A stretch of DNA of 64,000 nt, taken from contig NW_026570300.1 in NCBI RefSeq assembly GCF_019649055.1, positions 310,001 to 374,000 on the forward strand, written 5' to 3'. The notes beneath the pieces were generated by a model. It had not been told where the DNA came from. It did no database searches and saw only the letters and a list, made by a program, of their open reading frames with translations. The translations under genes were made by a program, and so were the position numbers. The stretch is from Paramacrobiotus metropolitanus. Taxonomy: Eukaryota > Tardigrada > Eutardigrada > Parachela > Macrobiotidae. Below are positions 8,406 through 30,727 of the stretch, piece by piece; the stretch's first letter is position 1; each line of letters begins with the position of its first letter.

Positions 8406-8626
8406 AACCAGTCTGTGCGTTTTTGAGCTGTGTATTTAAGGTTTCAAGTGATATGTTGTATACCGCAGTTAATTTTAATTCCGTGTTGCACAACGTTAAA
8501 TCTCTTTTACGCTCCAGATTGGATGAAATTATAGCAGTTTGCTTAATTTTACCAAACACACAATAGAAATAGGCAATACAGATATGAATAACAAATGTCC
8601 GCGTAGTAATAAACAATTTTAATACA

Positions 8627-11600
8627 TCAGTTATAATCACCAGTATACATACAAAATTTAATACGAACCTTGTCATTTGCACCAGTCGAAATATTTCGTG
8701 ACGTTGTATCAGCTGTATGTATACGTCTGATGTATAAGAAATGTTTTTCTCTGACACAGAGTAGTTTATTTTTCTTGGCATCTGCTGACAAGCATTCCTT
8801 GAACGATAGTGAGCTGCGTGGCCGCAGCGGTGCCTCGCTGGTATTCACACTGCTGACATACTTCATACACAGCGCGTCAATCTTCGCGAATTGACGGATG
8901 ATCTTTTCCAGTTTCTTGTACACCGTTTCCCGTTCATCGACACTGAGACGATGCCCCATCAGATAGAACAGCACGCTCAAGAAGTATGCGTAACTGCATT
9001 CCATCTTGCGCTTGCTGTTGCTGGACACTTGTGTGACATCTGAAGAAAAGGTCATTTAATCCTTACGGCACAATACTCTTCGTCGGTGGTTGACATACCG
9101 GGAGAAAACAAACCAACGGTTAGCAGGAGATAGCGCTCCGTGAGGTTCAAACCGATATCGTTCACCGCAGCGTAGAAGCAGTCGTTGAAGTGCATAAAGT
9201 CCGGATCCCAACCCAGCACCTCGATCCAGTACTTACAGTTCTGCACGCTGTCCTCCCCCGGCAAACAGTAATATCTGTCACCTTTGTAGAAGTATTTGCT
9301 AACATGGATCTACAAATGCACATCGTATTTTACTGTACTTCCATAGAATATTTTTGGTGATGACCTTGCTTATGCTGGCATACATAACCAACTAATCATA
9401 TAAATGTACGATAACAGGTACATCCTATCATGCTCATATACGCTTACAGATAGAGTACATCGACTCGTCAACAGGGTGACGAAATATATACATTTATCGC
9501 TAGAAAACTGGAAAATTCCAGGAAAAAAGCTTTGTCAGCTTTCCGTTTTTCTTATATATATTTGCGCAGAAAGACTGCCTCGATGAAACACATACTGTAT
9601 GCGTGCACGCACGCATATCTGTACCATGCTGCATACGAAAAACTTTTCCGTTTGTAGGATACGCTGGTCTTCGTTTGGAAAATCGCGAAACATAGGAATA
9701 CATGACGCAAAATGTCCTATACGCTGGGCTTGATCCACAACAGCGCGCTGACAAGCCTCGGCAGCGCGGGCCGGAGTTGTTTGCGGTTGATGCTTCAGCG
9801 AAAGAAAGAATCCGAAAGCAGTTGTTAAAATACTGTAGCTTCAGATTTTGCAAAGTTTCTTCCTTAACCGGATTACTGTATACCAGCATGTACAGATTTC
9901 TGCACAACACGTCGTATTAACAGACAATTTTATTAAAGAAGCTAGCCACGGTCTTAGGACTGTGCAGTGCCTGTAATTTGTAAATAAGGCAAAGGTCACT
10001 ATAAAAACCCAGTGTACATCTGATAACATTGTGAGAATTTCGATCGGTTTGAATCCATTTTGTTGTACCTTGCACGTAAAAGTACAGTAATTATTTCATC
10101 AGTTCCAGACATACACATTTACAGTGACCTACTGGTATTAATCCATCACACAGCGCTGCCTTCATAAAACTGTCGTACACCGCAATTTGGTCACCGTATG
10201 CAGCGTCGCGCGCTGCGCGCACATTGCCAGCAGCTTGCTGGAAATTGATGCTGTGCTCTCGGACCAAATCCCAGAAACGAACAACGATGGGCGATAAGAC
10301 GACCGAATGGGTCAGTAGATCGGGGCTCGCACGCGGCAATAAATCGGTGCATTGTGTATCCACATCTGAAAGCAAAGGTCGAATACATATGAACTCAGGA
10401 CTAGAGATGGCAAAACTAAAAAAAACTAAACTAAACTAAACTAAAACTCGGTTAAAAGTTGAAGTTGCTAAAATTGACTTGGTTAAAACTTTTAGTCGGC
10501 TAAACGTCGGCGACTAAATTTTTTAGTTGTTAACCTGAATTTAGTTAAAAATTTTAACCGGTTAACCAAAGTTAACCGAGACTAAAGATAAATTTTCTGT
10601 TAAAATGTTTTCCTTATTCTATACAGTGGGTGTCACTATCGCGGCGAAATGGTCCCACCTGTCGCCATAGTGTCATTAGTTCCGTATAACAAATAAAAAC
10701 AGAATCAAAATTTATTCGGCCTTCAGAGAACAATAAAATTTTATTTTGAAAATATAAGCTACAGTAGAAACAAATCCGTAATTGTATAATGTACATAATT
10801 ACTGGAAAAACTGTCAGTACTGCCAGTACATGCATATTACACACTTCATAGGGCCATTACACAGTACAGTACTTCAATGTAAAGCCATGCAGGTACTGTA
10901 ACTGCATTAGAAGATACAATACGCCATGCGCTACATTTACGATTAAATTGAAGTACTGCACGCATACTATGCAGTGCGCCGATCTGGTTGCGCAGTTTGT
11001 ACTTGAAAATTATGAAAAAACCACCGTCTCTTGCGGTCCGCCATTGCGCTGGGAATAAATTTCGGTTAACCGGTTAACCGCTGAGTTTTAGTAGCTAAAA
11101 TCTACTCGGTTAAAAAAATTTAGTTACTAAAAAGCTCTTGACTAATTTTTTTAGTCACCAAAGTTGGTTAAACTAATTTTTTTAGTTTTAGTCGAGTTAA
11201 CCGAAGTTAACCAACTAATTAGTCGACTAATTTTAGTTTTGCCATCTCTACTCAGGACCTGATATGCTACATTTTCTTCATTTACTAATTTATAGGTGCC
11301 ATGATTATAGGACATACAAATACGGTTTGAACAGGATGATTCGATTGAAACTGACTGATTGGGTTGAAATTGGTTTTAACGAGAAGATTACATTTTTTAA
11401 TTCTCAGCAAACAAATAGCAACGAAGCCAAGATAATTAAACCATTCTCGTAATAAACACCTATCATACTAACTGCAACTTCGCGCCAGATCGCGGATAGT
11501 TGCTGGGCCTGTTTTATGAATGTTGTGTGTGTTGAAGTGACCTCTTTCTCCGAGAATGACTGTGTTAGGCGCTGGTGTTACCGTATGTGATACTGTGCTG

Positions 11601-13542
11601 CTTTTTGCTCGAACATCTTTAGCATCTTTAGCAACATCTTTAGCATCTTTAGGAAATGCTGGAACATCTTTAGCACCTGCAAAACCACCTTAATATTGTT
11701 GCGGACCATTTAGGATACCCATAACCGTAAGGTGTGCAAAAATATAAGTAACACAGCGAGTTACAGATATATTTGTGCCGATTAGAATTCTACATGTGTA
11801 CATATCTATAGTTTGTAATTCCGTGTGGGGCACACAGAAACACAAAGTGGCTACTAAAGTAAACAAGGCGGATCCAGAGCTGTCTGTAGTACGATATTTC
11901 AGACAGCTCTGGATCCGATACTACCCTAGGTATTAGGTACTACCTGGTGTACGGCATCGTCTTACTTCGAGATTGCTGTCATCATAATTATTACCTCTGG
12001 CAGATGGCAAATTCTCGTTTTCTAGGTGCTCATCATGCGCCCGCGTTGTACCTGAAGATGACACTCATTAGTCTCAAACTAAGCAAGAGCAACAACTATG
12101 AAAGAAGAGTGTGCAAGAACCTCTTTATTTGTGCCCCTGTATGTACATACCGATAACGTTCGCTCGAGAAGAAGATGCCCGGGCTGATGTCGCAGTGGTA
12201 CCCTGTGTCCGGTGCTTTTTGCGCCGCAGATAGTTGCCGGCGTTTGGCGGGAAATTTTGTGGTTCAAACAGCATGGAAACCGCATGCGACCGCTTCCCGG
12301 AAGCCTGCAAACAAAGATTTGTATAAACATATTAAAAGGGTTATATGCGTTAGATTTGTCAGTCGATTGGTGTTTATTTTCACCCAGCTAAAATAGCCGG
12401 TACGAATAGTCTGTTCGCTCGTAATCGGATTGCTAAATAATTGCTTCTTATGCTCATAAAATTAATATGATAGAATGTGGTACACCACAAACCTGGTTTT
12501 CTGACCTAGCTCGGGGTTGGATTTACGAATGCCAAAATAGGATCTATCTCTGATATACATGATGCTGATAGTATGATGAACAAATTGTACTGCTCTGAAG
12601 CAAAAGGAGCGAAACTATATGGTACTAAGCTATGGAATGAAAAAAAAAGAACATACTCGTACAGTAGTGCAAAAAATTCATAAAAGCAGTGCGCTTTGTA
12701 CGAGGAGGGGGCAAATGAGCTCGATGCACCCGAGCAAGGGGTAACAGAGCTCGTTATCTGTGCCCGTGACTGTGCAACACGGCCAGCCACCAAGAGACGG
12801 CAGCCCGTGCTATCACGCAGAACACCTGAAGCAGTTATTGAGCCCGATAGTTTTTGTCTCCATAGACTTGTATGCTGAACTGAATCACTTCTGTTTTGCA
12901 TATCTGGGAACGAAACCAAGCAAACAACATTCCAAAAGAATCAGAAAAAATTCACGAGATTTTCGATACTAAACAAGTTATGATTCATGGTGCAGAACAC
13001 AAGTTATGGCCATTTATGTTTCTCGTAGACACAGCATAGAGTTTGTGCGTGGAACCCAACCGTTGATTCGAATTCTATGCTATGTCTACGAGAAACGCAA
13101 ATGGTTATAACTTATAACTTGTGTCTTGCACCATGAATCATAACTTGTTTAGTATCAAAAACCTCGTGAATTTTTTCTGATTCTTTTGGAATGTTATTTG
13201 CTTGGTTTCGTTCCCAAATGTGCAAAACAGAAGTGATTCAGTTTAGCATACAAGTCTATGGAGATACATCTGCTTCAGGTGTTCTGCGTGATAGCACGGG
13301 CTGCCGTCTCTTGGTGTTACAGTCACGGCACAGCTCTATTACCCTTGCTCGATCCCCCTCCTCGTATAGATCTTGTATTCGCTAATCAGGCTGCACCGGC
13401 TTACCGCTGCACATTGCGCGCATAGTTTACCGTCATGTAACGGTCCGTGCCGGAATGTGGATTTGCCGCAAGTATCACACGTACAAATGATTGCCGGTGT
13501 GCATTTATCCCAAGATTCCGGGGTATCCAAGCGCTTTTTCAT
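8627..13542 (-). CDS. NR-A: nuclear receptor with one zinc finger, 7 exons
   Basis: Ligand-regulated transcription factor family member. Exons in transcript order: 13542-13405, 12304-12151, 11676-11473, 10365-10133, 9792-9625, 9309-9099, 9039-8627. The total is 1521 bases (506 aa) with all phases agreeing. Exon 1 holds zinc finger 1 (Cys22, 25, 41, 44). Exon 2 is Ser/Arg-rich without cysteine, where NR-C has finger 2. Exon 3 is a hinge with an expanded A-K-D repeat. Exons 4-7 encode a ligand-binding-like domain: LSPIVVRFWDL, then GHFASCIPMFRDFPNEDQ matching the LBD signature region, then WIEVLGWDPDF and later helices. The tail is about 46 residues longer than in NR-B, and no canonical AF-2 helix is visible. 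Introns 1 and 3 contain inserted transposons. Intact frames across seven exons argue for function. Confidence 0.8.
10402..11250. mobile_element. Non-autonomous hAT-like element (849 bp) in NR-A intron 3
   Basis: The ends are inverted: TAGAGATGGCAAAACTAAAA on the left and its complement on the right. An 8-base direct repeat CTCAGGAC flanks the element (10394-10401 and 11251-11258). The equivalent NR-B intron near 19530 has uninterrupted sequence. Eight-base target duplications are typical of hAT elements. The interior has many TTAACCGG-type subterminal repeats and no transposase ORF. Confidence 0.8.
11608..11680 (-). repeat. In-frame 9-base repeat in NR-A hinge
   Basis: On the plus strand, units of ATCTTTAGC and variants repeat imperfectly. 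On the coding strand they give alternating AKD and KDV units inside the third NR-A exon. The matching NR-B exon (20447-20286) is 42 bases shorter and lacks the expansion, with the frame kept. Confidence 0.75.
11869..11917. repeat. Perfect 18-bp inverted repeat with 13-nt loop (NR-A intron 2)
   Basis: The arms are 11869-11886 and 11900-11917 (CGGATCCAGAGCTGTCTG and its exact complement). An imperfect version lies at the same place in NR-B, near 20640-20690. It could fold into an RNA hairpin in the intron. Confidence 0.75.
12701..13364. mobile_element. Foldback element (664 bp) with TA target duplication, NR-A intron 1
   Basis: Two arms of about 325-330 bp are inverted copies of each other, starting CGAGGAGGGG and ending CCCCTCCTCG, separated by a short centre near 13040. 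TA dinucleotides flank both ends (12699-12700 and 13365-13366). The NR-B intron at about 21500-21520 lacks the insert. The TA duplication suggests mobilisation by a Tc1/mariner-type transposase. It has no coding capacity. Confidence 0.85.
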
Positions 13543-13730
13543 GACTGGGAAAGTGTACAACGTTATGTTACAGAGCGCTTTTCAGCCAAGTGCGTCCACT
13601 TTTTGAAAAATCGTAGTGATAGTACATTTGTACTCGAAAGCGTGTAAAATGGTTTGGTAAGTGCTGTCAACGAAGTTGAGTGCTTAACTGCCACGCAGAG
13701 TACAGGAATAAGAAGCATTTCTCCGTATAT

Positions 13731-14251
13731 GTATGCAGGAAATGGCAACTGGCAAATTCCACGCAAAACCGTCTGGATGCCGGCAGCTGAGAGAGAAGCC
13801 AAATAGCTGCCAAATCCACCGTAAACATCGTCCTTGCAACGGCTTTCATTAGCGGATAATAAGTGAATCAAAAGCGACTGGGAAAATAGAAGGCCATGAC
13901 GTGCATAATCCGTATAACAGCTAACAGCTCGCTACGGTTTAATCAGCCACCAAGGTATTTCCACGCCGTTTTAAAGGAAGTTTCGGGTTCCTCTAGCACA
14001 CAACACGACTCTCACGATGACCGGCAGTTTCCGAAATTAAATAGTTATTGATCCGTGGTTTGTCGTGTTAGTAACTTGACAGTAACAATTACCCATGACG
14101 ATGATAATTGGCTCAGTATTTGCACTGTATACTTATATATGCCGGTGTTGTCGCCTGTAAAGGTTCACCGATTTTTAGAACACGACAACAATCACAGACG
14201 AAGACATAAAGGTTATAAGACGATGCGAACACTCGCTTAAGCATGCGGAAA
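13731..14251. repeat. Upstream block of NR-A, near-identical to 21862-22384
   Basis: About 520 bases upstream of NR-A match the block upstream of NR-B at roughly 98% by eye, with one single-base indel early in the block (13810s versus 21950s). The segment between it and exon 1 (13543-13730) is clearly less similar. It may hold the promoter. A possible old reading frame (GFGSYLASLSAAGI) is broken in the NR-A copy. Confidence 0.75.
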
Positions 14252-14904
14252 CCGCTCTTCGGCTCTTTTGCACATACCGCACAAGAACAGATATCTGCTG
14301 CATCATATTCCTTCCGTAATTTTTTACGCGTCACAATTGTGCCTATTTTTAGGAATGGCCATACATGCAACCTATACGTCAGGATTGTCTCTGAACGCTT
14401 ATAAACCAAAAGCCGACTGTCAGACGTGAACATAAAGATGAACAATGCTGACAGCATTAAGAACAGCTCATTATGGTGATGGTGATACCTCTTTAGCAGA
14501 ACCGGGGCTGCCGCAACCGGCAAATCGATTCCACTGTCAGGCGGAAGTCAACCAGGCTCGCTGTGTACATATACGGTGATTACATGATGTACATCGATAG
14601 TTTTTCTACCCGGAAGATTGTCCTCCGCGGCCGACTAATGCCAGACCGTGTGAAGAGCATCCATTATGGCATCCGGCTTATCGCGGCCATTTGCCACGGG
14701 CTATAGATTCAGCGGTATTATGTCAATCCAGGTGGGACCGTTCTTCGGCTAATGCGGCGCTCCATTGAACACGTTACAGCCGCAGCAGGTAGAGTAGCGG
14801 CGTTGAGATTTATCCTTCGTGTTAACTGTATTTACCGGTTTGAATTACGCTTGTGCTGCACAGCTGATATTATTCATTATGCAACTTTAGGTAACAGCGA
14901 AGTC
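14252..14904. other. Intergenic, absent from the NR-B unit
   Basis: Part of a segment of about 1.96 kb (14252-16220) that has no counterpart between the matching blocks of the NR-B unit, where 22384 runs almost directly into 22394. A minus-strand frame reads DICSCAVCAKEPKSGF near 14270-14330, faintly like the start of the first zinc finger, but without the second cysteine pair at the right spacing. No supported gene. Confidence 0.35.
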
Positions 14905-15115
14905 ATGTCATTGCAGAAATACGGCAGTGTGCAGAAATTCGGCAGTCTGCAGAAATTCGGCAGTCTGCATACATTCGGAAGTGTGCAGACGGATATGAGC
15001 CGGACAGGGCTGCGGTATATTCCAAAAGGACACGATCGGTTGCTGGTGATGTCGATTTCGGAAGTCCTCCTGGGCGCCCTGGTGTTCTCCTTTAACCTGT
15101 ATAATATTTTTTTCG
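14905..15115 (+). CDS. Orphan first exon with 18-nt repeats and a membrane segment
   Basis: An open stretch from ATG 14905 to a GTAAGA donor at 15116 encodes 70 residues. It starts with four near-identical six-residue units of the QKFGSL type, encoded by 18-base tandem repeats at 14914-14985. RYIPKGHDRLLVMSISEVLLG and a hydrophobic stretch follow. It looks like the cytosolic N-terminus and first membrane helix of a small multi-pass protein. The hydrophobic frame near 15365-15452 (IIFVGLLIPVLVQ) is a candidate next exon, but the phase does not fit the obvious acceptor. I cannot complete the gene; it may be truncated. Confidence 0.35.
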
Positions 15116-16220
15116 GTAAGAAAATAACAATTTTCTTTTGCACTTATCAGAGATAAATATCTAACAATACTGTGTTGTTCGAACTTGGTGCAAAGGCAGG
15201 TATAACGAGGGCACCCAACCTATTTTGATTAAAGTCAGTTGCCCTTTGGTGTTAGTCGTGAGACAAAATACGGTGCAGCTGCTGCGGCACTGCTTACATA
15301 ACTGCACAGTCCACTCATTTTTATTGAACCTATTCTTTTTTTTATCATTTTTACAAATTTGTAGTATAATATTTGTGGGACTCCTGATCCCCGTCCTTGT
15401 ACAGCACATGCCAGATTTATATAGGCAACAATTTTTTAACGAGTTACCGTAATTTGTGGTAGTTACGTAGGTATTCTGATGCGACATTGCCCAAGTCTGA
15501 TACATTGCAAATACACAATAAATGTGAATGGTAAGGCACTGGTAGCAGTCCTCACCAGCTAGGCCGAAGAGCTGGAAAACAGCTTTGGCAGTGTGCGGAT
15601 TCCCCGTGCGTTTGTCATACGAGCCATGCCTACTTTGCTAATGTTGTTTTCCCGTACACCAGCTTTCCGATCTAGGGTACTTTGAACAGGAACCTAAATA
15701 ATATCGGCCCAGCAATATCAGCCCAGCAGTTCAGTTACCGCCAGTTAAAATACAGTAAAACGGTAACTAATTTGTTTGGTTCGTCTCGAACGAATGACGA
15801 TTCGTTATTGTCATAAACCGTAAAATGGCCCGCGTAAGATATTCGCGTAAGTATCTGCGGGACCGGCCAATGCGCTTCAGTGGACGCCGTGTTTCTGCAC
15901 ATGTATTTTATTGATTTATGTTGCACCCAGAACCTCATGGTGGTACAATAATATTCCGTATTTTACAGGTACATCCGCTCTGATTTTACGTAGAAGTATA
16001 AGCACTTTTCAGTACGTAGAAGTACTGTTCCAGTTATTTTATTGACTGTATTCTGTACGGATATTACTCGCACATGGCACCGGTAAGGTCTAAAGTTATA
16101 TGGAATACTATCGAAAATTGTTAGTTTCGATCTGCTTTACTGTATACGCGCAACACGGGCTGGAAAAATATTGTTTAAGACGTTCACCAGTAACTTTTCC
16201 AGGCACCCTCTATCGACACT
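15116..16220. other. Non-coding, no complete gene
   Basis: This contains the possible hydrophobic second exon at 15365-15452 and otherwise nothing I can support. It is the distal part of the segment missing from the NR-B unit. Confidence 0.35.
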
Positions 16221-16502
16221 AGAAAGCAGACAGACTGGACTGGATAAGGAAAGACAGCTGGACTTACTACCAATCTCCCGTCATAAAATCTAACGTAAAA
16301 ATTTAACTGATAGGAAAAAATCAGTTCCTTCAGATCTGGCGACTTCGGGAAACCGGAAATTTTGTTGGCGTTTAGATGGCTGAAAACCTTTGACCAGAAT
16401 TAGCGATGCAGCAGTTGCAAGTTGTATGTTAGTAACATGATCATCTGGACGACTGGCTTGAAAACCGTTTGCGCTCGTAAACGTCCGCTTGTTGAGATAT
16501 GG
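16221..16502. repeat. Copy of the repeat also at 22394-22681
   Basis: AGAAAGCAGACAGACTGG at the left end and TTGTTGAGATATGG at the right end occur in both copies. They mark the outer part of the duplicated NR-A/NR-B unit. A stretch within it (GAAAACCGTTTG followed by GCTC) recurs near 37510. Confidence 0.7.
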
Positions 16503-17373
16503 CACCGTATTACATAATTTAAGAAACACATCGGAAACAAAAAATAATTTAAATGCCGGTGTAGCTACTGTAACGTAGCCCGATACGGTACAAAGTTGAG
16601 CCAAGACCTTTATTACTTTTAGCAAAAGCATTTGTACCCTGCCAAAGGAGTGCAACAACTTTAAAACTGATCACCCTCGCTGTGTAGGTTGGCTACTTGA
16701 AAAACTAAGTTTCGAAAACGAGAGCCTCGACTGTTCCGTAGTCTTTCTACTTTTGTAAGAAAGACTGTGTTATCAAATCCTGATTTTCCTCTATAACAAT
16801 GCTTTAGAGGTAAAATTTATAAATTCAGGGCTTTCGAGTGATGCATAGGCCTTAAAATGTTATGCATTGTAGCATTCTAGGTGATTTATCAAAAATTACT
16901 TACCTTATTCTACTGGCAGTGGTGGGGTCACTGGGGAGGTCGTTTCGCAGTGGTGGGTTCTCCACATTTCTCATAGACTTTGCATGTTAGGTTTTTTAAA
17001 CTTTTCTTTCCAACGTTACTTTTGTTTCGAAAACAGGCTTTTGATGACAAATATGAAAGGTTCGGGCCTATCGAATGGTATTAGCCATCAAAGTTTGGTT
17101 CAATGTAGAGTTCTGGTGAACTGTATCGAAATGGAATTTCTGAAAGTCTTATTCTTTTAATATATATAGAGATAATACTGATAGACAATTTCTGCGTAAT
17201 ACTTGTGGTAGCCGCGATGAGCGCATTATATGTAAATGATAAATCTTCAGGTTTACATGTACGTCGTTGAGAGTACAGGTTGATTTAAAACAGTCTGTTT
17301 TGGCTCAACACCGCGAAGAATACCGTCAGCTATACGTCAAGCGTGTAGTTTTTCGTTTGTACTAAACTTTTAT
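16503..17373. other. Intergenic between the NR-A unit and NR-B, no gene seen
   Basis: Mixed-composition sequence with no sustained ORF, clear repeat or RNA gene. It includes the 3' flank of NR-B. Confidence 0.4.
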
Positions 17374-20300
17374 CTATGAATCTTGGAAATTTCTGGGTAA
17401 GCAATCCTTGAACGATTGCGAGATCCGTGGCCGTAGCGGTAACGCGCTCGCATTCACATTGCTGACGTACTTCATAGACAGCTTGTCAATAACTGGGAAC
17501 AGGCGGATGACCTTTTCCAGTTTCTTGAACACCGTGTCCCTTTCATCGGCGCTGATACGATGACCAAGCAGATAGTACAGCACGCTCAAGAAGTACGCGT
17601 AACAGCACTCCATGGAGCGCTTGGTACTGCTGGACACCTGTGTGACGTCTACAGATAAGGTCATTATAATAGCCGGCTAACATAGCACAGTTTTCCAATT
17701 CGCCATATTCTTTTTCGGCATTTTGACGTACCGGAAGCGAACAATGCGGCAGCTAGCAGGAGATATCGTTCGATGTGGTTCAGACCGATATCATTCACCG
17801 CAGCATAGTAGAAGTCGTTGAAGTGCACAAAATCGGGATCGAAACCCAGCACGTCAATCCAGTACTTACAGCAGTGTACGTTGTCCTCTCCGAGCATACA
17901 GTAGTATCTGTCACCTTTGTAGAAGTATCTGCTAATATGGATCTACAATTACAAATCATATTTAACGTAATCTTCTTGGTGATTATCCTGCGTATCCATA
18001 ACCAGTTAATCGTATTCGTGCGGGTATAAAGTTTAATAATAACAGGTATATTTTACAATTTTCATCCGTATTCAAACACAGAGGCATGTGACAACATGGC
18101 ACTATGGCAAACAAGATTAACGGGATCGAAAACCAGATGACCAAAATAATTAATAATGGCTAGCAAAAAGAGAAATGAAGCATGGATGCAGAATGACCAC
18201 CCTAAAGCGACAAATTATGAGTAATAAGAGCGCCGCTACCTTGTGCGCACAAACCATATTGCATACGACGAACTTTTCCACTATTATAATACGCTGGTCT
18301 TCCTCCGGGAAATCGCAGAATACAGGAATACATGATGCAAAATGCCCCAAGCGCTCTACTTGATCCGCAATTGTACGCTGAAAGGCCCCGATAGCGCGGC
18401 TCGGTGTTGTCTGCGGTTGATACTACAGCCGAAGGGAAAATCGAAACTTATTAGTAAACAAAGAAAGCGCTAAAGCTTCTTCTTTAGCCCAACAGCAAAC
18501 ATACATCTATACATTTATACAAAACATTACTTAAATACACATATGTGTGTTATAGAAACATGTGTATCTTTATCTCTATCTATACATCTTATTGTTAATA
18601 TATTTGCAGTTCAAGAAGTAGGTAATTCAGTATCCATGCGTTCAGCTTAGAAATCTGTTCGAAAAATCACGTACAGGGTAGAATAGTAAAGACGCTTTTG
18701 AAAAAAATTATTGTAGTTCTCAAAAGTTTTGAAGAATCCAAAGAAAGTGCTTGGACGGAACTAACATTTGACAACCCCTCGCTTTTTTCTTGAACCTATG
18801 CCCACTGGCTATTTCGCAGTAACGTTCTTAGCGACATTTAGCGACATTTAGCGATTTAGCGACGTTCTTAGCGAAACATATGCTTCGGTAATTACAGAAA
18901 CGCGTCAATAATAGCAATAAATCTACTCTTGTTTGCATTACATTTCTTAGCACAAACGTATATATAGAAGTACGATATATGTCCACGATCCTAATTTCCA
19001 ACCACATTCCCATACCTAAAACGCAACTAGTCGTGCGCTAGAGCGACCGCTAATTGAAAATATACGTGTACAAACATGTTGCAAATTAAGTGCTGAAAAC
19101 AGCATTACAGTGATTCACTGTAATTAAGACAATTTGGTTATGAAAACAATCCATATCAGATCAATCCTAGTAGTAATATGCGAAGCAGTGCTTTCGATTG
19201 GTTTGAATCTACAGAAATTTTGAATGGTATGGTTCAGTTTTCGTTTTTTCTACCCACTTAATAACGCGCGTACCGGTATTAATCCATCGCCTAGCGCTGC
19301 CTGCATAAAACTGTCGCTCGCCGCAATCTGTTCACCGTATGCCGCGGCGCAAGCTGCTCTCACATTGCCGGCAGCCTGCTGGAAACTGATGCTGTGCTCT
19401 CGGGCCAAATCCCAGAAACGGACAACGATGGGCGATAAGACGACCGAATGGGTCAGCAGATCGGGGCTCGCACGCGGCAACAAATCGGTGCATTGTATAC
19501 CCACATCTGAAAAGCAAAGGTCAAATATACATCTGAACTGAGAATCTGATATGCCATTTTTTCTTCATTTAATAATAATTTATAGGTGCCATGACTAGGT
19601 ATAAGGCATAAAAATACGGTTTGAACGGGAAGATTACAAATTTTAATCCACAGTAAACAAAAAGCAACAAAGCCAGGATAATAATGCACTTCGTAATACA
19701 TCGAAACACAGGCGCGTACACCTATTGTAACAAAAGCCTATCTGGCTGCTGTTCAAGTTTTTTTTTTAATGTGTTGTTGTTTCAATTATGCTAAGCCAGT
19801 TTAAACATCCAAACACACACAAGCGTCACACAGCATCAAAAGACAGCGGAAACATGCGGCTGTTCAAGTAGGTTGGCGATCAGCATTTACCACGATTATG
19901 CGGCTGTTGGGATGAAAGGTGGCACGGTCGGCAACGACGCCGGCCGAGGATGCCCTTACTGATGCAAAAAATTACACAGGTAGCTACGACTGGGATGACA
20001 CTGGTTCATCCCAAGCAACAACGTAATTCAAGGTTTGTTTAATGACAAGGGCAATGCAAGAAACGGAGCAAGGTTTAGGGCAAGAGATTAGGACACGGTT
20101 GATCAAGCTGATGCGAGCTGTAACAAGCTGAGTACAAGACTGAATTCTAGAAATTCATGAGGGAAAGTTTGGGAAATCAGGCGGTAAACTCGACAAAATC
20201 CATAACGCGATGGAATGGTGAATCATAACTGGGTGGTCTTATCGTTCGCACAAAATTAATACTATCGCTATACTATCATACTAACCGCAACTTCGCGCCA

Positions 20301-21683
20301 GATCGCGGATAGCTGCTGGGGCTGTTGTACGAATGCTGCGTTGGCTGAACCGACCTCCTTCTCCAAGAATGACTGTGTTAGACGCTGGTGTTGCCGTATG
20401 CGATGCTGTGCTGCGTCTTGAACAAAATGTTGGAACACCTTTAGCACCTGCAAAACCACCTGTTATTGTTGAGGGCCATTTACAATACTCATAACTGTAA
20501 GGTGCGCAAAACTATAAGTAACACACCGAGTTACAGATATATTTGTGCCGATTAGTATTCTACATGTGTACGTATCTATACTTATTAATTTCGTTTGAGC
20601 CATACAGAAACACAAAGTGGCTGCTAACATTAAGAAGTTCCGGAGTTGCCTGTAGTACGGTATTACAGACAACTCTGGCTCCGATACTAGAGTAGGTATT
20701 AGGTACTACCTGGTATACGGCATCGTATTACCTCCAGATTGCTGTCATATTACCTCTGTCAGATGGCAAATTCTCATTTTGTAGCTGCTCATCAAGCGCT
20801 CGCGTTGTACCTGAAGATAACACCTATCAGTCGTAAACTGAGCATGAACAATAATTATGAAAGAAGAGTTTGTAAGAACCTCTGTATTTGTGGTCCTGTC
20901 TGTACATACCGATCACGTTCGCACGAGAAGATGATGCCCGGGCTGATGGCGCAGTGGTATCCTGTGTTCGGTGCTTTTTCCGCCGCAGATATTTACCGGC
21001 CGGGGCGTTTTGCGGGAAATTTTGTGGTTCAAGCAGCATGGAAACCGTCTGCGACCGTTTCCCGGAAGTCTGCAAACGCAAATCTGTATAAAATTATTAA
21101 AAAAGTTAAGTGCGCTAGATATGTTGGTCGATTGGTGCTTAGTTTCACCCAGCTCAATTTACTCAATCAAATTGGTACGAGGCCGATACTCTGTTCGCTC
21201 GTAGTCGGATTGGTTTTTATGCTCATAAAAGTAATATGACAGAACGTGGTACACCAAAAATCTGGCTTTCTAACCTAGCTCCGGGTTTGATTTACGAATG
21301 CCGAAACATGATCAATCTCTGATATACATGCTTCGCACACCACCATAATTGTTTGCTGATGGTATGATGAACGAATTGTGCTACTTTGAAGCAAAACTAT
21401 GTGGTACAAGGGAAGCGAAACTATGTGGTACAAGGCTATGGATTAAAAAAAGGGATATACTCGCACAGTATTGTGAAAAATTAGTAATAATAGCAGTGTG
21501 CATTTGCAGATCATGTATTCGCTAATCACGCCTGCACTGGCTTACCGCTGCACATTTCGCGCATAGTTTACCGTCATGTAACGGTCCGTGCCGGAATGTG
21601 GATTTGCCGCAAGTATCACACGTAAAAATAATTTCCCGTGTGCATTTATCCCGAGGTCCCGGATTAGCCATGCGTTCGTCCAT
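17374..21683 (-). CDS. NR-B: nuclear receptor with one zinc finger, 7 exons
   Basis: Paralogue of NR-A. Exons in transcript order: 21683-21546, 21069-20910, 20447-20286, 19506-19274, 18422-18255, 17942-17732, 17648-17374. The total is 1347 bases (448 aa) with all phases agreeing. Zinc finger 1 has Cys22, 25, 41 and 44. Exon 2 (TSGKRS through SSSRANVI) has no cysteine and replaces finger 2. The hinge exon lacks the repeat expansion of NR-A. The ligand-binding-like domain reads LSPIVVRFWDLAREHS, GHFASCIPVFCDFPEEDQ and WIDVLGFDPDF, and ends KDCLPRNFQDS. Exons 4, 5 and 6 are exactly the same lengths as in NR-A (233, 168 and 211 bases). No canonical AF-2 motif is visible. The upstream block is nearly identical to that of NR-A. 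Confidence 0.8.
19722..20096. repeat. Dispersed repeat in NR-B intron 3, also at 44347-44621
   Basis: The two copies share long stretches such as GATGACACTGGTTCATCCCA and GAGCAAGGTTT. The NR-B copy carries an extra segment of about 110 bases with a T-run near its left end. It is absent from the NR-A intron and so is a later insertion. No terminal structure is clear. Confidence 0.65.
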
Positions 21684-21861
21684 GTATGAGAAAATATAAC
21701 GTTATGATACAGAGAGTCTTCAGCCAAGTGCGTCCACTTTCTGAACAACTGTAGTGATTGTACTCGAAAGCGTGTAAAATGGTTTGGTAGGTGCTGTCAA
21801 CGAATTTGAGTGCCTCTACTCCCACGCAGAGTAAAGGAATAAGGAATATTTCTCTGTACAA

Positions 21862-22384
21862 GTATGCAGGAAATGGCAACTGGCAAATTCCACGCAAAAC
21901 CGTCTGGATGCCGGCAGCTGAGAGAGAAGCCAAATAGCTGCCAAATCCCACCGTAAACATCGTCCTTGCAACGGCTTTCATTAGCGGATAATAAGTGAAT
22001 CAAAAGCGACTGGGAAAATAGAAGGCCATGACGTGCATAATCCGTATAACAGCTAACAGCTCGCTACGGTTTAATCAGCCACCAAGGTATTTCCACGCCG
22101 TTTAAAATGAAGTTTCGGGTTCCTCTAGCACACAACACGACTCTCACGATGACCGGCAATTTCCGAAATTAAATAGTTATTGATCCGTGGTTTGTCGTGT
22201 TAGTAACTTGACAGTAACAATTACCCATGACGATGATAATTGGCTGAGTGTTTGCACTGTATACTTATATATGCCGGTGTTGTCGCCTGTAAAGGTTCAC
22301 CGATTTGTAGAACACGACAACAATCACAGACGAAGACTTAAAGGTTATAATACGATGCGAACACTCGCTTAAGCATGTGGAAAC
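21862..22384. repeat. Upstream block of NR-B, near-identical to 13731-14251
   Basis: See the block at 13731. This copy keeps the GFGSYLASLSAAGI frame open on the minus strand. Confidence 0.75.
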
Positions 22385-22393
22385 ATTCTCTGT

Positions 22394-22681
22394 AGAAAGC
22401 AGACAGACTGGAATGGAGGATAAGGAAAGACAGTCGGACTTCTACGTACCAAGCTCCCGTCATAAATCTAACGTAAAAATTTAACTGATAGGAAGAAATC
22501 AGTTCCTTCAGATCTGGCGACTTCGGGAGTCAGGAAATTTTGTTGGCGTTTAGTTGACTAAAAACCTTTCACCAGAATTAACGATGCAGTCAGTAGTAAG
22601 TTATAAGTTAGTAACATGATCATCTGGACGGCTGGCTTGAAAACCGTTTGCGCTCGTAAACGTCCGCTTGTTGAGATATGG
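22394..22681. repeat. Second copy of the repeat at 16221-16502
   Basis: It directly follows the NR-B upstream block, whereas about 2 kb separates the two in the NR-A unit. Confidence 0.7.
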
Positions 22682-24202: not shown

Positions 24203-27200
24203 TCACCCCAGCCTACCCGCGGGCCCAAGACAGTCTCGAAAGGCCGCCGAGCGCGGCTGCACCGGCACGACACTGACATCCAGATCGCCGACAAACTGCA
24301 TGGAGATGCGGTCGCAGGTGGGGAACAGGCGGATGACGCTTTCCACTTGACTGTACACGCCGGAGCGCAGCTGCAGCGGTACACGGTGTCCGATCATGTA
24401 GAACAGCGCATCCAGGTAGTACGCGTACATGAATTCCATCGTGAGTTTACTCGAGGCGGTGGTGACCTCTGTAAAAAAAAATTCAAATGCGCATGTATAA
24501 AATTATATCCCTGATTCGGTCAAATAAATTTTAATCAGCCAAACACACCGCATTAAAGGTTACCATTAAAATAAAATAATTTTTCAAATAAGTATTTATA
24601 TGGCAGTTCTATTAATATAGATAACTGTTTTATGCAATAGGAGTATTTATATAATTTTATTAAATTAAAATATTAGGGCTGTTTAATTAACTACTCGTAT
24701 ATCAGTTTAATTAATATATTAGCTCCCAACTGACCGGGAGAGTATAATACTTAATTACAGACCGGATAAGCACGGTCAAACTATTTTCAAATATTTAGCA
24801 AATAATTACTTATACCATCGTTTAATGAATTTTACTTCAATTTAATTAAGTGCCAATTCACAACGAACCTGGACAAAATACTGCCGCCGACAGCAGCAAA
24901 TACTTCTCCGTGGTGGTCAAGCCGATGCTGTTGACCTGTACGTAGAAGGCTTCATTGAAGGAAATAAAGTCCGGATCGAAGCCGAGCACTTCCAGCCAGT
25001 AGCGGCAATTATGCAGACTATCTTCGCCGGCCATGTACCAGTAGTGTTCGCCTTTGTGGAAATATTTGGACACGTTCAGCTGAATTATAGAAGTTTCATT
25101 TTCAATCCCTGGACAGTGAACAACCGGAAACAAACGTTAATTAACGATAATTAAATGTCAATTAATGGTTAACTTCTGTTAGCGCTTGCGGGTAGCATAC
25201 AATCGGCTGGAAATAAAATACTCGTATCAACGACTCCACATTACTAAAAATAAGTCTAACAATATTCACAACAGTAGTTATACCATAACATTAAATATAA
25301 ATTCATGCTTCAGTACTTACCATGTTGATCCACTCTTATTTTATTTTTATTTGTCCATTAAAAAATGCCGACCGCGAGTTTACCTACAAAAAGGTTATGC
25401 AGGTAGGTACGAACCAGATTACATATCAGGTACTTTTCCCTTAGGAGAGTTTTCTGATCTTCTTCACTGAAATTCCCGAATCCCGGCAGGAAAGATGCAA
25501 AACGCCCCAGACGTCGAACCTGATCGGTGATGCAGTTCTCGATGGCCATCAGGGCGCGTGCCGGAGTGGTCTGCGGCTGGTGCTAGATATAAAACGCAAC
25601 CGGTCATTAAAACATTTTTTCACATCACTGTTTTCGCTGTACAAACAACAGACAAAAATTCTTCAAAGAATTCAGCTTTATTCCATTTATTATTTAAGTA
25701 AAGCGCAGGTATTAATTATTACGGTATTAAGTATTTACAAATACTTATCAAGTATTTATAAATACTTAAATATTCACTAAAGTGCAGATATAGCAGCATT
25801 TATTCGTTAATAATTCAGGTAAAGTACAGATACGACAGTGTGTATTTAAAGAACAGAATAATTAACAGAATCTTGTAATCGTACCGAAAATAAAAACGAC
25901 CGGCATGCAGTAAAACAGGGAGGTTAATTATCTGATTGATATTAACAATAACTAATAAGAACAACATTATACGGTACACATATTGTATTTTATTGTTTAT
26001 ATTTAATTACTGTATATAGAGTATACATTTTATTTTTACTGTATATATTCATATGCATATATTTACATCATATACATATATTATTTACAATATTAAATGA
26101 CACTGTTGTACGTTAACTTCAGCTGTTCGATAACAGCCCAGTCGTCCTTAGCACTTTGCACTTACCGGCACCAGTCCCTCGCACACTGCCAGCTGCATAA
26201 AATCATCAAAAGCCTGAATCTGGTCGCCGTAGGCCGCTGCCTGGGCGATGGCAATACCGCCAGCCGCCTGCTGCAGCAGGACGCTCTTTTCGCGTGTCAG
26301 ATCCCAGTAGCGGGCCACAATGGGCGACAGACGGGCGGCGGTCTCCTGGGCGGCCGCCAGGCGGGCCGAAACACTGGACGGAGAGCGTAATACCGCTGAT
26401 TCGATGCCGCTGTCTACAGAAAGAAATTACAAAACATCACGAAATTACTTTATTATGTATTCCAAAATTTAAAAGGCAAACATACGCTAGCAAAATTAAC
26501 AATCTACCAAAGAGACAGAATTAAACATAAATCACTTTCAAATCTATAAAGAATGAAATGTTTCTAGGCGAGTATCGTTGAGATTTGTCGATAAAATACT
26601 GTAAGTTAAAATGCGAAATTTTGTCACACATGCTGTATACAAAAACCAGCCGAAAGATTCCAAATTTAAATATTGTGTGTGAAAATGAACTCATAAGTAA
26701 CTAATACAGAGCATCCATAACTTTGCACGCAGTCACAAACCACAAATACGAGTACCGCGAGTATTGATAAACCACTTAAGCAATAGAATACTTCGTACAG
26801 ATACTTAATACTATGTAGTGTGTCTAAAGAACCATTAATAAAGAATTCATATTAATTTTATCGTTTTCTCTGCTTATTTATATGGGCTGCCCGCTGAGTT
26901 AAGTAATTGTTAAGGAAGGAAAGTCATAAGGGAAGGAATAAGGAAAGTCTCATATGTACCCGCAGAATCCACACGACTGCGGTAAATGACCGATACGGTT
27001 CTGCTGGGCGAGGGACCAGCAGCGGCGGCCGCACTAAATCGGCCTTTCTCCACTGCACAGGCACTCGTGCTGGGGATGGGCGCGGACGTGGCGGCAGCGT
27101 GTGAGACGCCTCCGGAATGGCGCTCACGTGACGAGCATTCTCCAACATCTACACGCAGTAAATTACGTGAAAAATCCGAGGACAGCATCGTGGATCAGAA

Positions 27201-29037
27201 AGCTGGTAAAAATCAGCCAGTATCAAATCAAGATGGACACCACAAGTCTTCGTGTATTTGCTGATCTGGCAGTGAAAGAACTGGGCGAATCAAAATTACC
27301 ACCTTCCGATTATCATAAAACTGAATTTATACAACTGGAAACGTGGAAAGCAATCGCAAAAAATTCCCTGGTATAGCCAGCAGCGATGCGAGCAGGTGAG
27401 TAACCGTGCTGGAAACTTCGCGAAGCCATGATGCTGATCGCCAGTCGCCACCGAGGCCATCAGTTGGCATCAAGCATTTAAGCATCACGTGGCTGTTAGC
27501 CTGGTTAATTAAACGCCCACCCAAGCAGCTTGATAGTGGATATTGCAAGCGGCCATGCTGCACTGCTGCCCGCGGATGCCAGACCACACTTTTTTGGTAC
27601 TTCAAGTACGCTGTACTGTACAGTGTACATGTGCTAGCCTAGAGCCTAAGTACTTCGATTTTATACGACAGTATCCAGTTCGCTTTCTGGTAAGCTTCTG
27701 TTAAGAATGATTTGATATAGTCTAAATCATTGAAAGACGACCAGACAGGTGAAAATCTTTCAGTGTACCTGAAACAGCAGCTGTATTTCTCTTGCAAGCG
27801 CCACACTGTCTCAAGAACGCCGTGGAACCAGGTTCGCCGGTATTTAATACACTTGTACAGAATCATTAGAATGCGTGGTACTTGTCGCAGATGTCTGCCT
27901 CTTGGATTTCTCTGTATTGTCGGCCAAACGAGTTTCTCATGATTGAACGGATCGAAGAACTCACCCGGGGCCCGTTGCGGGTCGGACTGGCTAGATGCTG
28001 CTGCGGAAGGGACTGCAGTCACTGCAACGATGAACGAAATTGCATGGACCATGGTACAAACTACAGTCTGTAATTTTATAAAGTTTAGTGTACTCCATCA
28101 CTCTAGACAGTAGTTACCTACCTTGCTGCACTGCCGTGCGCGTGCGGGGGTTCAATTTCATCCCGGCTGCCAGACACTTACGCAATCGGCAGGCTTTGCA
28201 CATGGGTTTCGCGCTGGCTGGTGTCGGGCACATGTTGTATAATGCGCACTTGTAACTGTACTGCGGGAGAACTTTTGATGCCCGTAAAAAGAATGCCTGT
28301 TAAAGAAAGAAAGCTATTTGACCGTCATGCTACTCTGTCATACGGACTGTACGCGGCCAAGCCGTAACGTTACGGTACTAACTAGTAACTACCAACAGTA
28401 CCAAGTACCAAATACAAAGGCGAAGCGGAAAATCCGGTACTTGTTGTCGACGCCCGGCGGGAGTGTGAACTTGCAGCCGAACATGGTGCTAATGCACAAC
28501 GTACAGATACACAGCGCGCCGGTGTATTAATGATATTAATTATTGTAGCCGCAGCGTCGCACTTTAGCCGGATCGATAAATGACATCAAGTGTAGGATTA
28601 ACAGAGCTTTGTTGTTGTCAATCCCTTTTGTTTGGTACGAGTAGATAACTCCCGTTATTTGAATCATAACTGAGAATGTTCAACTAAATTCACTATTACA
28701 ATTGCGTACCAGTGAAGAATTTAATAAAATTCTGACCTGGAATTATACGAGTAAAGAAAAATAAGTATACTGTAAACAAATCTGTCACCAGAGTATCAGA
28801 AGAATATTGGACAGGATTCGGCGCGATCTTGTCATGTTATGTAAATTGTTTTTACGAAATAAAAGTAAAAATGCTGTCAAATCTTACCGCACAGCTGTTA
28901 CACACTTTGCCGCCGTACAGCAGCCCGTGGCCAATGGTCGATCGACCGCAGACACAGCAGACATCAGTGGATGACCGACTACATCCGCCAGTCTCGTCCG
29001 GTAACTGTACAATATTGTCCGGATTGACCGACCCCAT
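24203..29037 (-). CDS. NR-C: nuclear receptor with both zinc fingers, 8 exons
   Basis: Nuclear hormone receptor family member. Exons in transcript order: 29037-28888, 28296-28122, 28012-27965 (the acceptor could be 9 bases upstream), 27148-26960, 26413-26166, 25582-25415, 25079-24869, 24468-24203. The total is 1455 bases (484 aa), all phases consistent. Finger 1 uses Cys27, 30, 46 and 49, with 15 residues between pairs instead of the usual 13. Finger 2 is canonical (Cys67-x5-Cys73-x9-Cys83-x2-Cys86), followed by RLRKCLAAGM. The hinge is Ser/Ala/Arg-rich. The ligand-binding domain contains LSPIVARYWDL and the signature GRFASFLPGFGNFSEEDQ, then WLEVLGFDPDF. There is no obvious AF-2 helix at the C-terminus (DCLGPAGRLG). 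I cannot place it in a named receptor subfamily; it may be lineage-specific. Confidence 0.85.
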
Positions 29038-30727
29038 CGTACGTATACAAACTGGTCGCCCACGCCTAGTCACTAGTCAGTAATATAGATCGTCAAATTG
29101 CATGTTATACGAAACTATTACATGCAGAAAAGAAGATCGTCTCGGATGTATATAACATCTTATCACAGGTTGTATGGCGACTTCTGGCGCGCTGTCGCGC
29201 GTTATATAAGCACCCAGATAAAAATCAGCACGCCGAGCGGATTTCCCACATTAACGGGTACGCCGATATGGGCAACAACAAGATGATGTGCCATCCGGAA
29301 GCTGGTACCGCACGTGAAGCGCTCATTAAGAAATATAACAACCACGTTCGCACAACGGCATTTAGTCCAATCAAAACAGTGGCAAAATGCCGTAATGAAC
29401 ACCAGTACACCTGCGTCTTCCCGGCCGCATTTAAATATTTAATTTCGCGTTCTGTTCGATCGGTATGTTTGCGCGAAATACGGGTCAACAATGAATTGAA
29501 GACATGGCCGTAAAACGCAGTCACACGTGAACTCAGCGAGATACGTTGACGTCGACCGGCAATAACCGAAGCTAAATATTACGTAGTTACGACATCGTTC
29601 TGCGTTAGACATTGCAGCGGATGATTCAGGGATGAATGATTAATTGTTAATTGGTGTTGTTGGATGCGCTGATTATAAGCGCCAGTTTTAGTCTGGACTG
29701 GAGATAGAAAGGAATAACAGACTGCCCTCGATGCGTCTTAATATAATTACGCCTCGCTGCTTAGCGTCCCGAATTACCGTAATAATTATACCGGGTGCAG
29801 CGCGCAGGTACCTATAGGCTAATCTAGGGCACTGCAACCGCCCTTTGTAATTTACGTCGTTATCGATCCATCCGGAAGCCATACCGGGGCGCGTGTGTCG
29901 GGCAAAGACGGGGCCGGCATGCGCAGCGTTAACGTATAATCATACCGAAATCCTTACTCTAGGGAGTGTATAAGTGAGGCCTGCGTCGCGTTGGCCGACA
30001 CAACGCATCCGCCTGGACTGCCGGCCGGGTGCGACCGCAATCCGGGATAATTGCGTCGGTGGTGTATTCGATAATTTCATTTGGGTTCAGTGGATCAATG
30101 ATTACGTAAACATTGTTTTGCGTTGTTGTGTGCCGGTGCGTCAGCGTGCGCGTCGCGTATCCGATACGTTAACGTCCCGGATGCATACCAGACCAACACG
30201 TTATCGGTGACCTTATGTAGTTATGCACGGGGTGCCGGACACACCACCTTTTTGTTTATTTGATTACTTAGCGAGCGGTACATGTTGTATTATATATATG
30301 TACACAAATATATCTAGGAAAATGCACAGTTGAATGCATTTTTAGATCGCAGTGCTGCTGTTGGTCAGCGTTGACCTTTGATACTTGCCAAACTGCACTA
30401 TATCTGAGTTTATTTACACAACTAACGTTTTCGACTTACTGCAGTACTAACTCGTAAGTTGTAAATAATAATTTCCCACATTTCCATAACAGGCAAATAG
30501 AAATAGACTTTTACCCCTTCATCGCTGCGCTTTGGTCGATCCTGTATTTATGGACTAAAAATAAAGCCAAAATGCGTACTATATAATTAAATCAAATCCA
30601 GATTTTTTTTGACCTTTTTTTTGACCTTTCAAATCCAGAAATTAAAATTATCCTCTTCCTGCTGTAATAATAATAAAATCAGTCATTCCAACATCCAGAA
30701 GGTATCTGAGGAAGGCCGATTGGGATC
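29038..30727. other. NR-C upstream region and 5' flank of the retrotransposon
   Basis: GC-richer around 29.2-30.2 kb and AT-rich at 30.2-30.7 kb, with a T-rich repeat TTTTTTTGACC twice near 30605-30630. No gene is supported. The last few hundred bases probably belong to the 5' UTR of the element at 30728. Confidence 0.4.

Follow-up and report, generated by a model that had tools for sequence, protein, structure and literature searches.

Tardigrade nuclear-receptor genes with a first zinc finger and a ligand-binding domain, and a basic exon at the position of the second finger

We analysed a 64,000-nucleotide stretch of the genome of the tardigrade Paramacrobiotus metropolitanus (assembly GCF_019649055.1, contig NW_026570300.1, C80:310001-374000 in our numbering; 42.0% GC; hereafter the window). 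Two of its genes, NR-A and NR-B, encode the first zinc finger (finger 1) of a nuclear receptor and a ligand-binding domain (LBD), with a basic exon where a neighbouring receptor gene, NR-C, has its second finger (finger 2). A third gene of this kind, NR-D, was found outside the window by genome searches, which covered the 533 contigs of the 169.8-Mb assembly. Our preferred reading of these sequences, to which we give a probability of about 0.6, is that NR-A, NR-B and NR-D are functional, one-finger, NR1-like receptors that would act through the LBD, together with two-fingered relatives.

NR-A and NR-B both lie on the minus strand and comprise eight coding exons, which join without internal stops into a frame of 525 codons in NR-A and 467 in NR-B; every intron is GT-AG, and the two genes agree in their junction phases (0, 1, 1, 1, 0, 0, 1). 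Exon 1 (13405..13542 in NR-A; 21546..21683 in NR-B) carries the start codon and finger 1, spaced C-x2-C-x15-C-x2-C in NR-A; the finger core lies at 13411..13479 in NR-A, with all four cysteines kept, and at 21620-21552 in NR-B. Exon 2 (12151..12304; 20910..21069) is entered in phase 0 and left in phase 1, is basic (YLRRKKHRTQ in NR-A) and encodes no cysteines. In NR-A, a hinge follows (exon 3, 57 nt, 11995..12051; exon 4, with AKD repeats, 11473..11676), and then the LBD, from its start (exon 5, 10133..10365) through its core (exon 6, 9625..9792; exon 7, 9099..9309) to its end (exon 8, 8627..9039), which has a motif resembling activation function 2 (AF-2), SFKECL, and an extended C-terminus. 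In NR-B, exons 3 (20754..20810) and 4 (20286..20447) have an open frame and GT-AG introns, and the LBD spans exon 5 (19274..19506), exon 6 (18255..18422), exon 7 (17732..17942) and exon 8 (17374..17648), the last of which ends it with an AF-2-like SFKDCL.

The 3' end of NR-C lies 2.5 kb upstream of the start of NR-B. NR-C also has eight exons, with identical phases, and its exons 3, 6 and 7 have the same lengths as those of NR-A and NR-B (57, 168 and 211 nt). Finger 1 is in exon 1 (28888..29037, minus strand) and finger 2, preceded by the start of the recognition helix, in exon 2 (28122..28296); exons 3-8 (28021-27965, 27148-26960, 26413-26166, 25582-25415, 25079-24869 and 24468-24203) fall within 24203..28021. 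These gene models confirm the original prediction, made from the letters of the window, that the exons of NR-A and NR-B correspond one to one and stay open, and that a cysteine-free, basic exon 2 has the phases of the finger-2 exon of NR-C. By position and phase, exon 2 of NR-A, NR-B and NR-D is the positional counterpart of the finger-2 exon.

Where that prediction counted two paralogues, a genome search with NR-B found three, in a family with many members that apparently have no DNA-binding domain (DBD). NR-D, on contig C69 (exons at L001: 5027-5161, 5610-5763, 6283-6447, 6663-6895, 7175-7342, 7643-7853 and 7920-8194; open, 446 residues), has the same architecture and the same finger-1 exon; its exon 2 corresponds to that of NR-A and NR-B but includes one cysteine. 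Exon 3 is dead in NR-D, with a lost splice donor (by eye) and a 4-nt frame-breaking gap, but the ancestral exon, its length divisible by three, can be skipped. When exons 1 and 2 alone were the query, the genome search returned the three one-finger genes, finger 1 of NR-C (expect value, E = 0.05) and one chance-level match. Among pairwise gaps in exons 1, 2 and 4 of the three genes, 9/9 were divisible by three, compared with 34/143 in introns; the nine cases are not independent, and the count leaves out the dead exon 3 and the exon 8 tail of NR-D. The one-finger architecture is more than chance, as the third paralogue keeps the exons and the exon gaps keep the frame. Upstream of NR-D (L001:3857-4063) lie the remains of an NR-C-like exon 7 of the LBD, interrupted by a stop; it seems that an NR-C-type neighbour of NR-D decayed while the one-finger gene stayed intact.

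The original prediction had proposed an all-frame search for a finger-2 pattern. Across the NR-A, NR-B and NR-C loci, C-x4-7-C-x8-11-C-x2-C in six frames gave one match, NR-C's own finger 2 at 28248; the NR-D locus gave none. In two other receptor genes finger 2 is divided between two exons, and half-fingers were therefore sought too. Whole- and half-finger tblastn searches between exons 1 and 5 of NR-A, NR-B and NR-D produced 16 matches with E < 0.5, against 13 on reversed sequence, and the best E values were 0.022 and 0.025 (both antisense), against 0.051 on reversed sequence. Searched against the genome, neither PF00105 nor the NR-C DBD listed a finger 2 at any of these three loci. With both the six-frame patterns and the reversed-control tblastn at chance level, a missed finger-2 exon was rejected. 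At the other loci with finger-1-only Pfam matches (C76, C14:971 and C33), finger 2 does follow, split in C76 and C14; a further such match, at C87, contains a stop, and finger 2 was located 3 kb downstream.

The four finger-1 cysteines are encoded in 3/3 one-finger copies. The x15 spacing, which differs from the canonical x13, is common to NR-C and C96, and the full two-finger signature of nuclear receptors (C-x2-C-x13-C-x2-C plus C-x5-C-x9-C-x2-C) is absent from NR-A, NR-B and NR-D. In NR-C, exon 1 ends one codon past the fourth cysteine and exon 2 begins with AFFLRAS, where the recognition helix starts; in the one-finger genes, exon 1 ends two codons past that cysteine and exon 2 begins with ASGKR or TSGKR. 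The original prediction held that only finger 2 had been lost and the LBD retained. Finger 2 was indeed not found and the LBD is under selection (see below), but the FF.RA start of the recognition helix, which is in exon 2 of NR-C, has gone as well. In a nuclear-receptor DBD, the two phenylalanines pack the core and the recognition helix reads DNA. With the FF.RA start lost, what remains would be a zinc knuckle, not a functional half of the domain.

An LBD profile of 12 family members matched LXR-alpha best among PDB sequences (8.7e-14), followed by VDR and EcR; by this sequence comparison the domain has the LBD fold of the nuclear receptor superfamily, and the family appears to be NR1-like. 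Pfam alone was weak, with no family for NR-A (cut to 478 residues), and LBD matches of 0.17 for NR-B and 0.0041 for NR-D. The C-terminus is also AF-2-like in NR-C (AFRDCL). Shared motifs and a four-exon LBD (exon phases checked in NR-A, NR-B, NR-C and NR-D) place these genes in a lineage-specific, NR1-like tardigrade family. In an LBD tree of 24 family members, NR-A, NR-B and NR-D form one clade (100/99) with NR-C as its sister (100/97), which, together with the exon phases of NR-C, indicates descent shared with a canonical receptor. As the one-finger genes are one clade beside a two-fingered sister, a single loss of finger 2 is probable, later than the split from NR-C.

The LBD is under purifying selection in all three pairs. 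The ratio of replacement to silent substitution rates (dN/dS) across exons 5-8, a comparison that the original prediction had also suggested, is 0.35 (A-B), 0.27 (A-D) and 0.35 (B-D), with Fisher p values of 4.7e-9, 2.1e-9 and 1.1e-8; that is, the LBD is not evolving neutrally, with silent divergence reaching 0.80 in single exons. The finger-core stretch differs at 1 (A-B), 4 (A-D) and 3 (B-D) of 69 nt (or 1, 3 and 2 for the exact core taken from codons, the stretch having been compared one codon off), while the flanking non-coding DNA differs at 98/909, 216/887 and 222/889 sites (11%, 24% and 25%; Fisher 0.007, 0.0002 and 2e-5). In the part of exon 1 before the finger, 15, 14 and 12 of 60 sites differ. 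Since silent sites of the core are conserved too, this reflects constraint or conversion, not amino-acid selection as such. NR-A is a mosaic: in a comparison of 8600-14100 with 17300-22400 and L001, its 5' half is nearest NR-B, with 13-17% difference in introns 1-3, and its 3' half nearest NR-D, with 25-31% difference in introns 5-6 (48-50% to NR-B), a pattern that points to gene conversion.

We propose that finger 2 and the start of the recognition helix would have been lost in a single event after the split from NR-C. The conserved basic RKKHRTQ patch suggests that the NR-A, NR-B and NR-D proteins would be nuclear. As finger 2 and the recognition helix are gone, normal response-element binding is not plausible, and the proteins would probably be unable to contact a hormone response element in the canonical two-finger manner. 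An NR1-like LBD with an AF-2-like end makes it plausible that ligand and coregulators would be bound. The proteins may pair with two-fingered relatives such as NR-C, modulating or titrating them, and the leftover knuckle may be a structural cap or a protein interface instead of a reading head. By analogy, with E75B and SHP/DAX-1 as working models, the likeliest role would be that of a nuclear modulator acting via LBD contacts with two-fingered relatives; dominant-negative action of NR-A and NR-B, raised in the original prediction, might be envisaged. LBD-only relatives would represent a further step on the same road.

An architecture of this type, called unusual in the original prediction, is unusual as a gene but has precedents as isoforms in E75B and FXR-alpha-se5. 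Insect E75B (NR1D3) resembles NR-A, NR-B and NR-D, in architecture only, in having one C4 finger and a retained LBD; the finger that E75B lacks is finger 1, not finger 2. E75B is, moreover, one isoform among others of its gene, some of them two-fingered, whereas no finger-2 exon was found at the NR-A, NR-B and NR-D loci. The E75B of Bombyx is stated to be incapable of binding DNA (PMC4499807; here and below, articles with PMC numbers are cited from excerpts of their text). In FXR-alpha-se5, the finger-2 exon (exon 5) is skipped in frame, finger 1 and the LBD are kept, RXR pairing and binding to IR-1 (inverted repeat 1) are reported as impaired, and no obvious dominant-negative mechanism is described; the same article cites an exon-skipped estrogen receptor variant (Wang and Miksicek 1991) (PMC11758954). 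Both forms keep finger 1 and the LBD with finger 2 removed in frame, as here, but they are splice forms with no replacement sequence, whereas in NR-A, NR-B and NR-D three genes have a basic exon instead.

Several points weigh against our reading. For exons 1-2, dN/dS is 0.67, 0.55 and 0.51 (A-B, A-D and B-D; Fisher 0.38, 0.048 and 0.049), with bootstrap upper limits of 1.54, 1.10 and 1.06; as these exceed 1, dN/dS does not firmly establish constraint on the N-terminus. Exon 1 alone gives 1.25, 1.67 and 0.57, and exon 4 exceeds 1 in all pairs (2.40, 1.22 and 1.23) without reaching significance. Silent changes in the finger core are too few to demonstrate amino-acid selection, and the conservation of the core could be at the DNA level or due to conversion. 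Exon 3 of NR-D has been lost, as has the stop codon of NR-A. The impaired RXR pairing of FXR-alpha-se5, with no dominant-negative mechanism, argues against simple titration.

A broader account takes in the rest of the family. A genome search with one family exon (exon 7) gave 38 matches, of which 24 entered the tree (the C69 relic and 13 others were left out). These 24 loci comprise 6 with both fingers, 3 with finger 1 only and 15 with neither in the upstream DNA searched (~3 to 9 kb; two-fingered members have their fingers ~1 to 5 kb before exon 5). In a control with two-fingered queries, finger 2 was recovered with E below 0.05 at 6/6 two-fingered, 0/3 one-finger and 0/15 other loci; for five C32 genes the control covered 1 to 2 kb upstream, and separate finger searches covered the remainder. 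Single-pattern matches at finger-less loci (C37 956840, C32 781798 and 795895, C29 120950 and others) were judged by eye to be chance, as was a C-x5-C stretch upstream of C32a (770890), the frame of which soon stops. The finger-less loci are both tandem and scattered: 5/15 form one tandem stretch on C32 (769000-808999), and others are on C32, C314, C87, C52, C424, C29, C37, C93 and C14. They apparently make up a large set of LBD-only receptors, with room for divergent or distant fingers, and such a set would escape zf-C4 searches. Four C32 genes share an RGNFNEDF...FPPGFRK-like stretch a few hundred bases before exon 5, perhaps an N-terminal exon conserved among the finger-less receptors.

It is tentatively conceivable, though we would not give it even odds, that the whole family is in stepwise loss of DNA binding, from two-fingered receptors through a one-finger clade with a repurposed knuckle and exon 2 to LBD-only ligand sensors. 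The repurposed knuckle and basic exon 2 would then serve protein, RNA or single-finger DNA contact. NR0B receptors (DAX-1, SHP) and invertebrate LBD-only receptors likewise have an LBD without a working two-finger DBD; they have no DBD at all, whereas NR-A, NR-B and NR-D keep a four-cysteine first finger, and the 15 finger-less loci are NR0B-like in architecture only.

We consider it unlikely that the one-finger proteins still bind DNA or RNA as monomers through the single C4 knuckle and the basic tail from exon 2, in the way that GATA-type fingers combine one finger with a basic arm. The knuckle is kept in 3/3 copies and is slow to change, and the RKKHRTQ patch of the basic exon 2 has no replacements over the three copies, with four silently varying codons. 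For exon 2 alone, dN/dS is 0.32 for A-D (p = 0.009), but the values for A-B and B-D (0.40 and 0.47) are not significant. The proteins lack FF.RA, with which the recognition helix begins, and Pfam searches of all three (E up to 10) returned neither zf-C4 nor GATA, the only zinc-finger name being zf-UBR (E 2.1, NR-D).

Decay into pseudogenes, or a functionless remnant of a recent duplication, is very improbable. It would account for the loss of exon 3 in NR-D and for the absence from NR-A of a stop at the position of NR-D's, beyond which NR-A reads ~47 residues further (8627-8770); exons 1 and 4 evolve fast or close to neutrally, and the NR-C-like relic exon with its stop adjoins NR-D. Against this stand three open frames with good splice sites, and LBD constraint (dN/dS 0.27-0.35) at the silent divergence given above, which argues against pseudogenes.

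Identity of phase, noted in the original prediction, does not establish that exon 2 descends from the finger-2 exon. Against a profile of nine finger-2 sequences, the in-frame exon 2 scored -1.7 (NR-A), -1.9 (NR-B) and -1.3 (NR-D) bits, values that 1428, 1707 and 713 of 2000 shuffled versions of the A and B segments equalled or exceeded, whereas genuine finger-2 sequences score 70-88 bits; none of the three forward frames was significant. By eye, KRSHAVSMLFEPQN can be aligned on RKCLAAGMKLNPRT, but the profile scores are within those of shuffles and do not establish descent. We likewise give little credence to exon 2 being the old finger-2 exon in a shifted frame, a change that would have made a new basic segment out of the finger in a single step. 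Position and phases are identical, cysteines in frame +1 of NR-D exon 2 have finger-like spacing by eye, and in frame +2 NR-A, NR-B and NR-D score 1.4, 1.1 and 0.4 bits, with 50, 72 and 105 of 1000 codon-shuffled controls scoring as high. However, the frame +1 scores were reached by 397 to 663 of 1000 controls (365 to 609 in a second run), frame +2 is borderline at best before allowing for nine tests on related sequences, and all fall far from the scores of true finger-2 sequences. Replacement, complete erosion or a frame shift are each possible origins of exon 2, judging from these comparisons. The least probable alternative is a very divergent, split or distant finger-2 exon between exons 1 and 2, since, although splitting occurs in this genome (C76 and C14:970), the whole- and half-finger searches between exons 1 and 5 gave only chance-level matches, the PF00105 and NR-C DBD searches listed none at these loci, and exon 2 already occupies the position and phase of finger 2.

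Other features of the window were recorded. Intron 1 of NR-A contains a fold-back element of ~530 bp (12788-13316) with at least 78 genome-wide matches, counting both orientations; NR-B and NR-D, whose intron 1 is shorter, do not have it there. Intron 4 of NR-A (10398-11260) apparently holds another inserted element, with inverted TAGAGATGGCAAAACT-like ends (by eye). Beside NR-C, a 983-residue open frame with a reverse transcriptase domain (30710-33658; RVT_1, 8e-17) is a retroelement, and a minus-strand frame at 34014-34568 matches TMEM151 (1.8e-9).

A word-matching search of the open-access literature found no gene-encoded receptor with finger 1 and an LBD only. No such class appears in the excerpts of surveys of atypical receptors (PMC10497141, PMC8363021 and PMC4070562), and those of PMC4388693 contain nothing relevant. 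Within the literature searched, one finger with an LBD is known from splice isoforms and not from genes fixed in this form. Tardigrade Group 5 C4-type receptors are described as almost exclusively tardigrade and expanded by duplication (PMC12941274); LBD motifs 3 and 5 of that article, which co-occur in many Group 5 members, resemble by eye exons 7 and 6 of NR-A and NR-B. According to the excerpts, that survey chose its proteins by zf-C4 models and homology, and as zf-C4 has no Pfam match to NR-A, NR-B or NR-D, it probably would not count them.

Searches for the zf-C4 domain thus undercount receptors, with 0/3 one-finger proteins matched in Pfam. Together with NR-C, their two-fingered sister 2.5 kb upstream of NR-B, and with cousins that apparently have no finger, NR-A, NR-B and NR-D offer a natural series within one genome. 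This series lets one ask what role an LBD has after DNA reading has been dismantled, and whether finger 1 is useful in itself.

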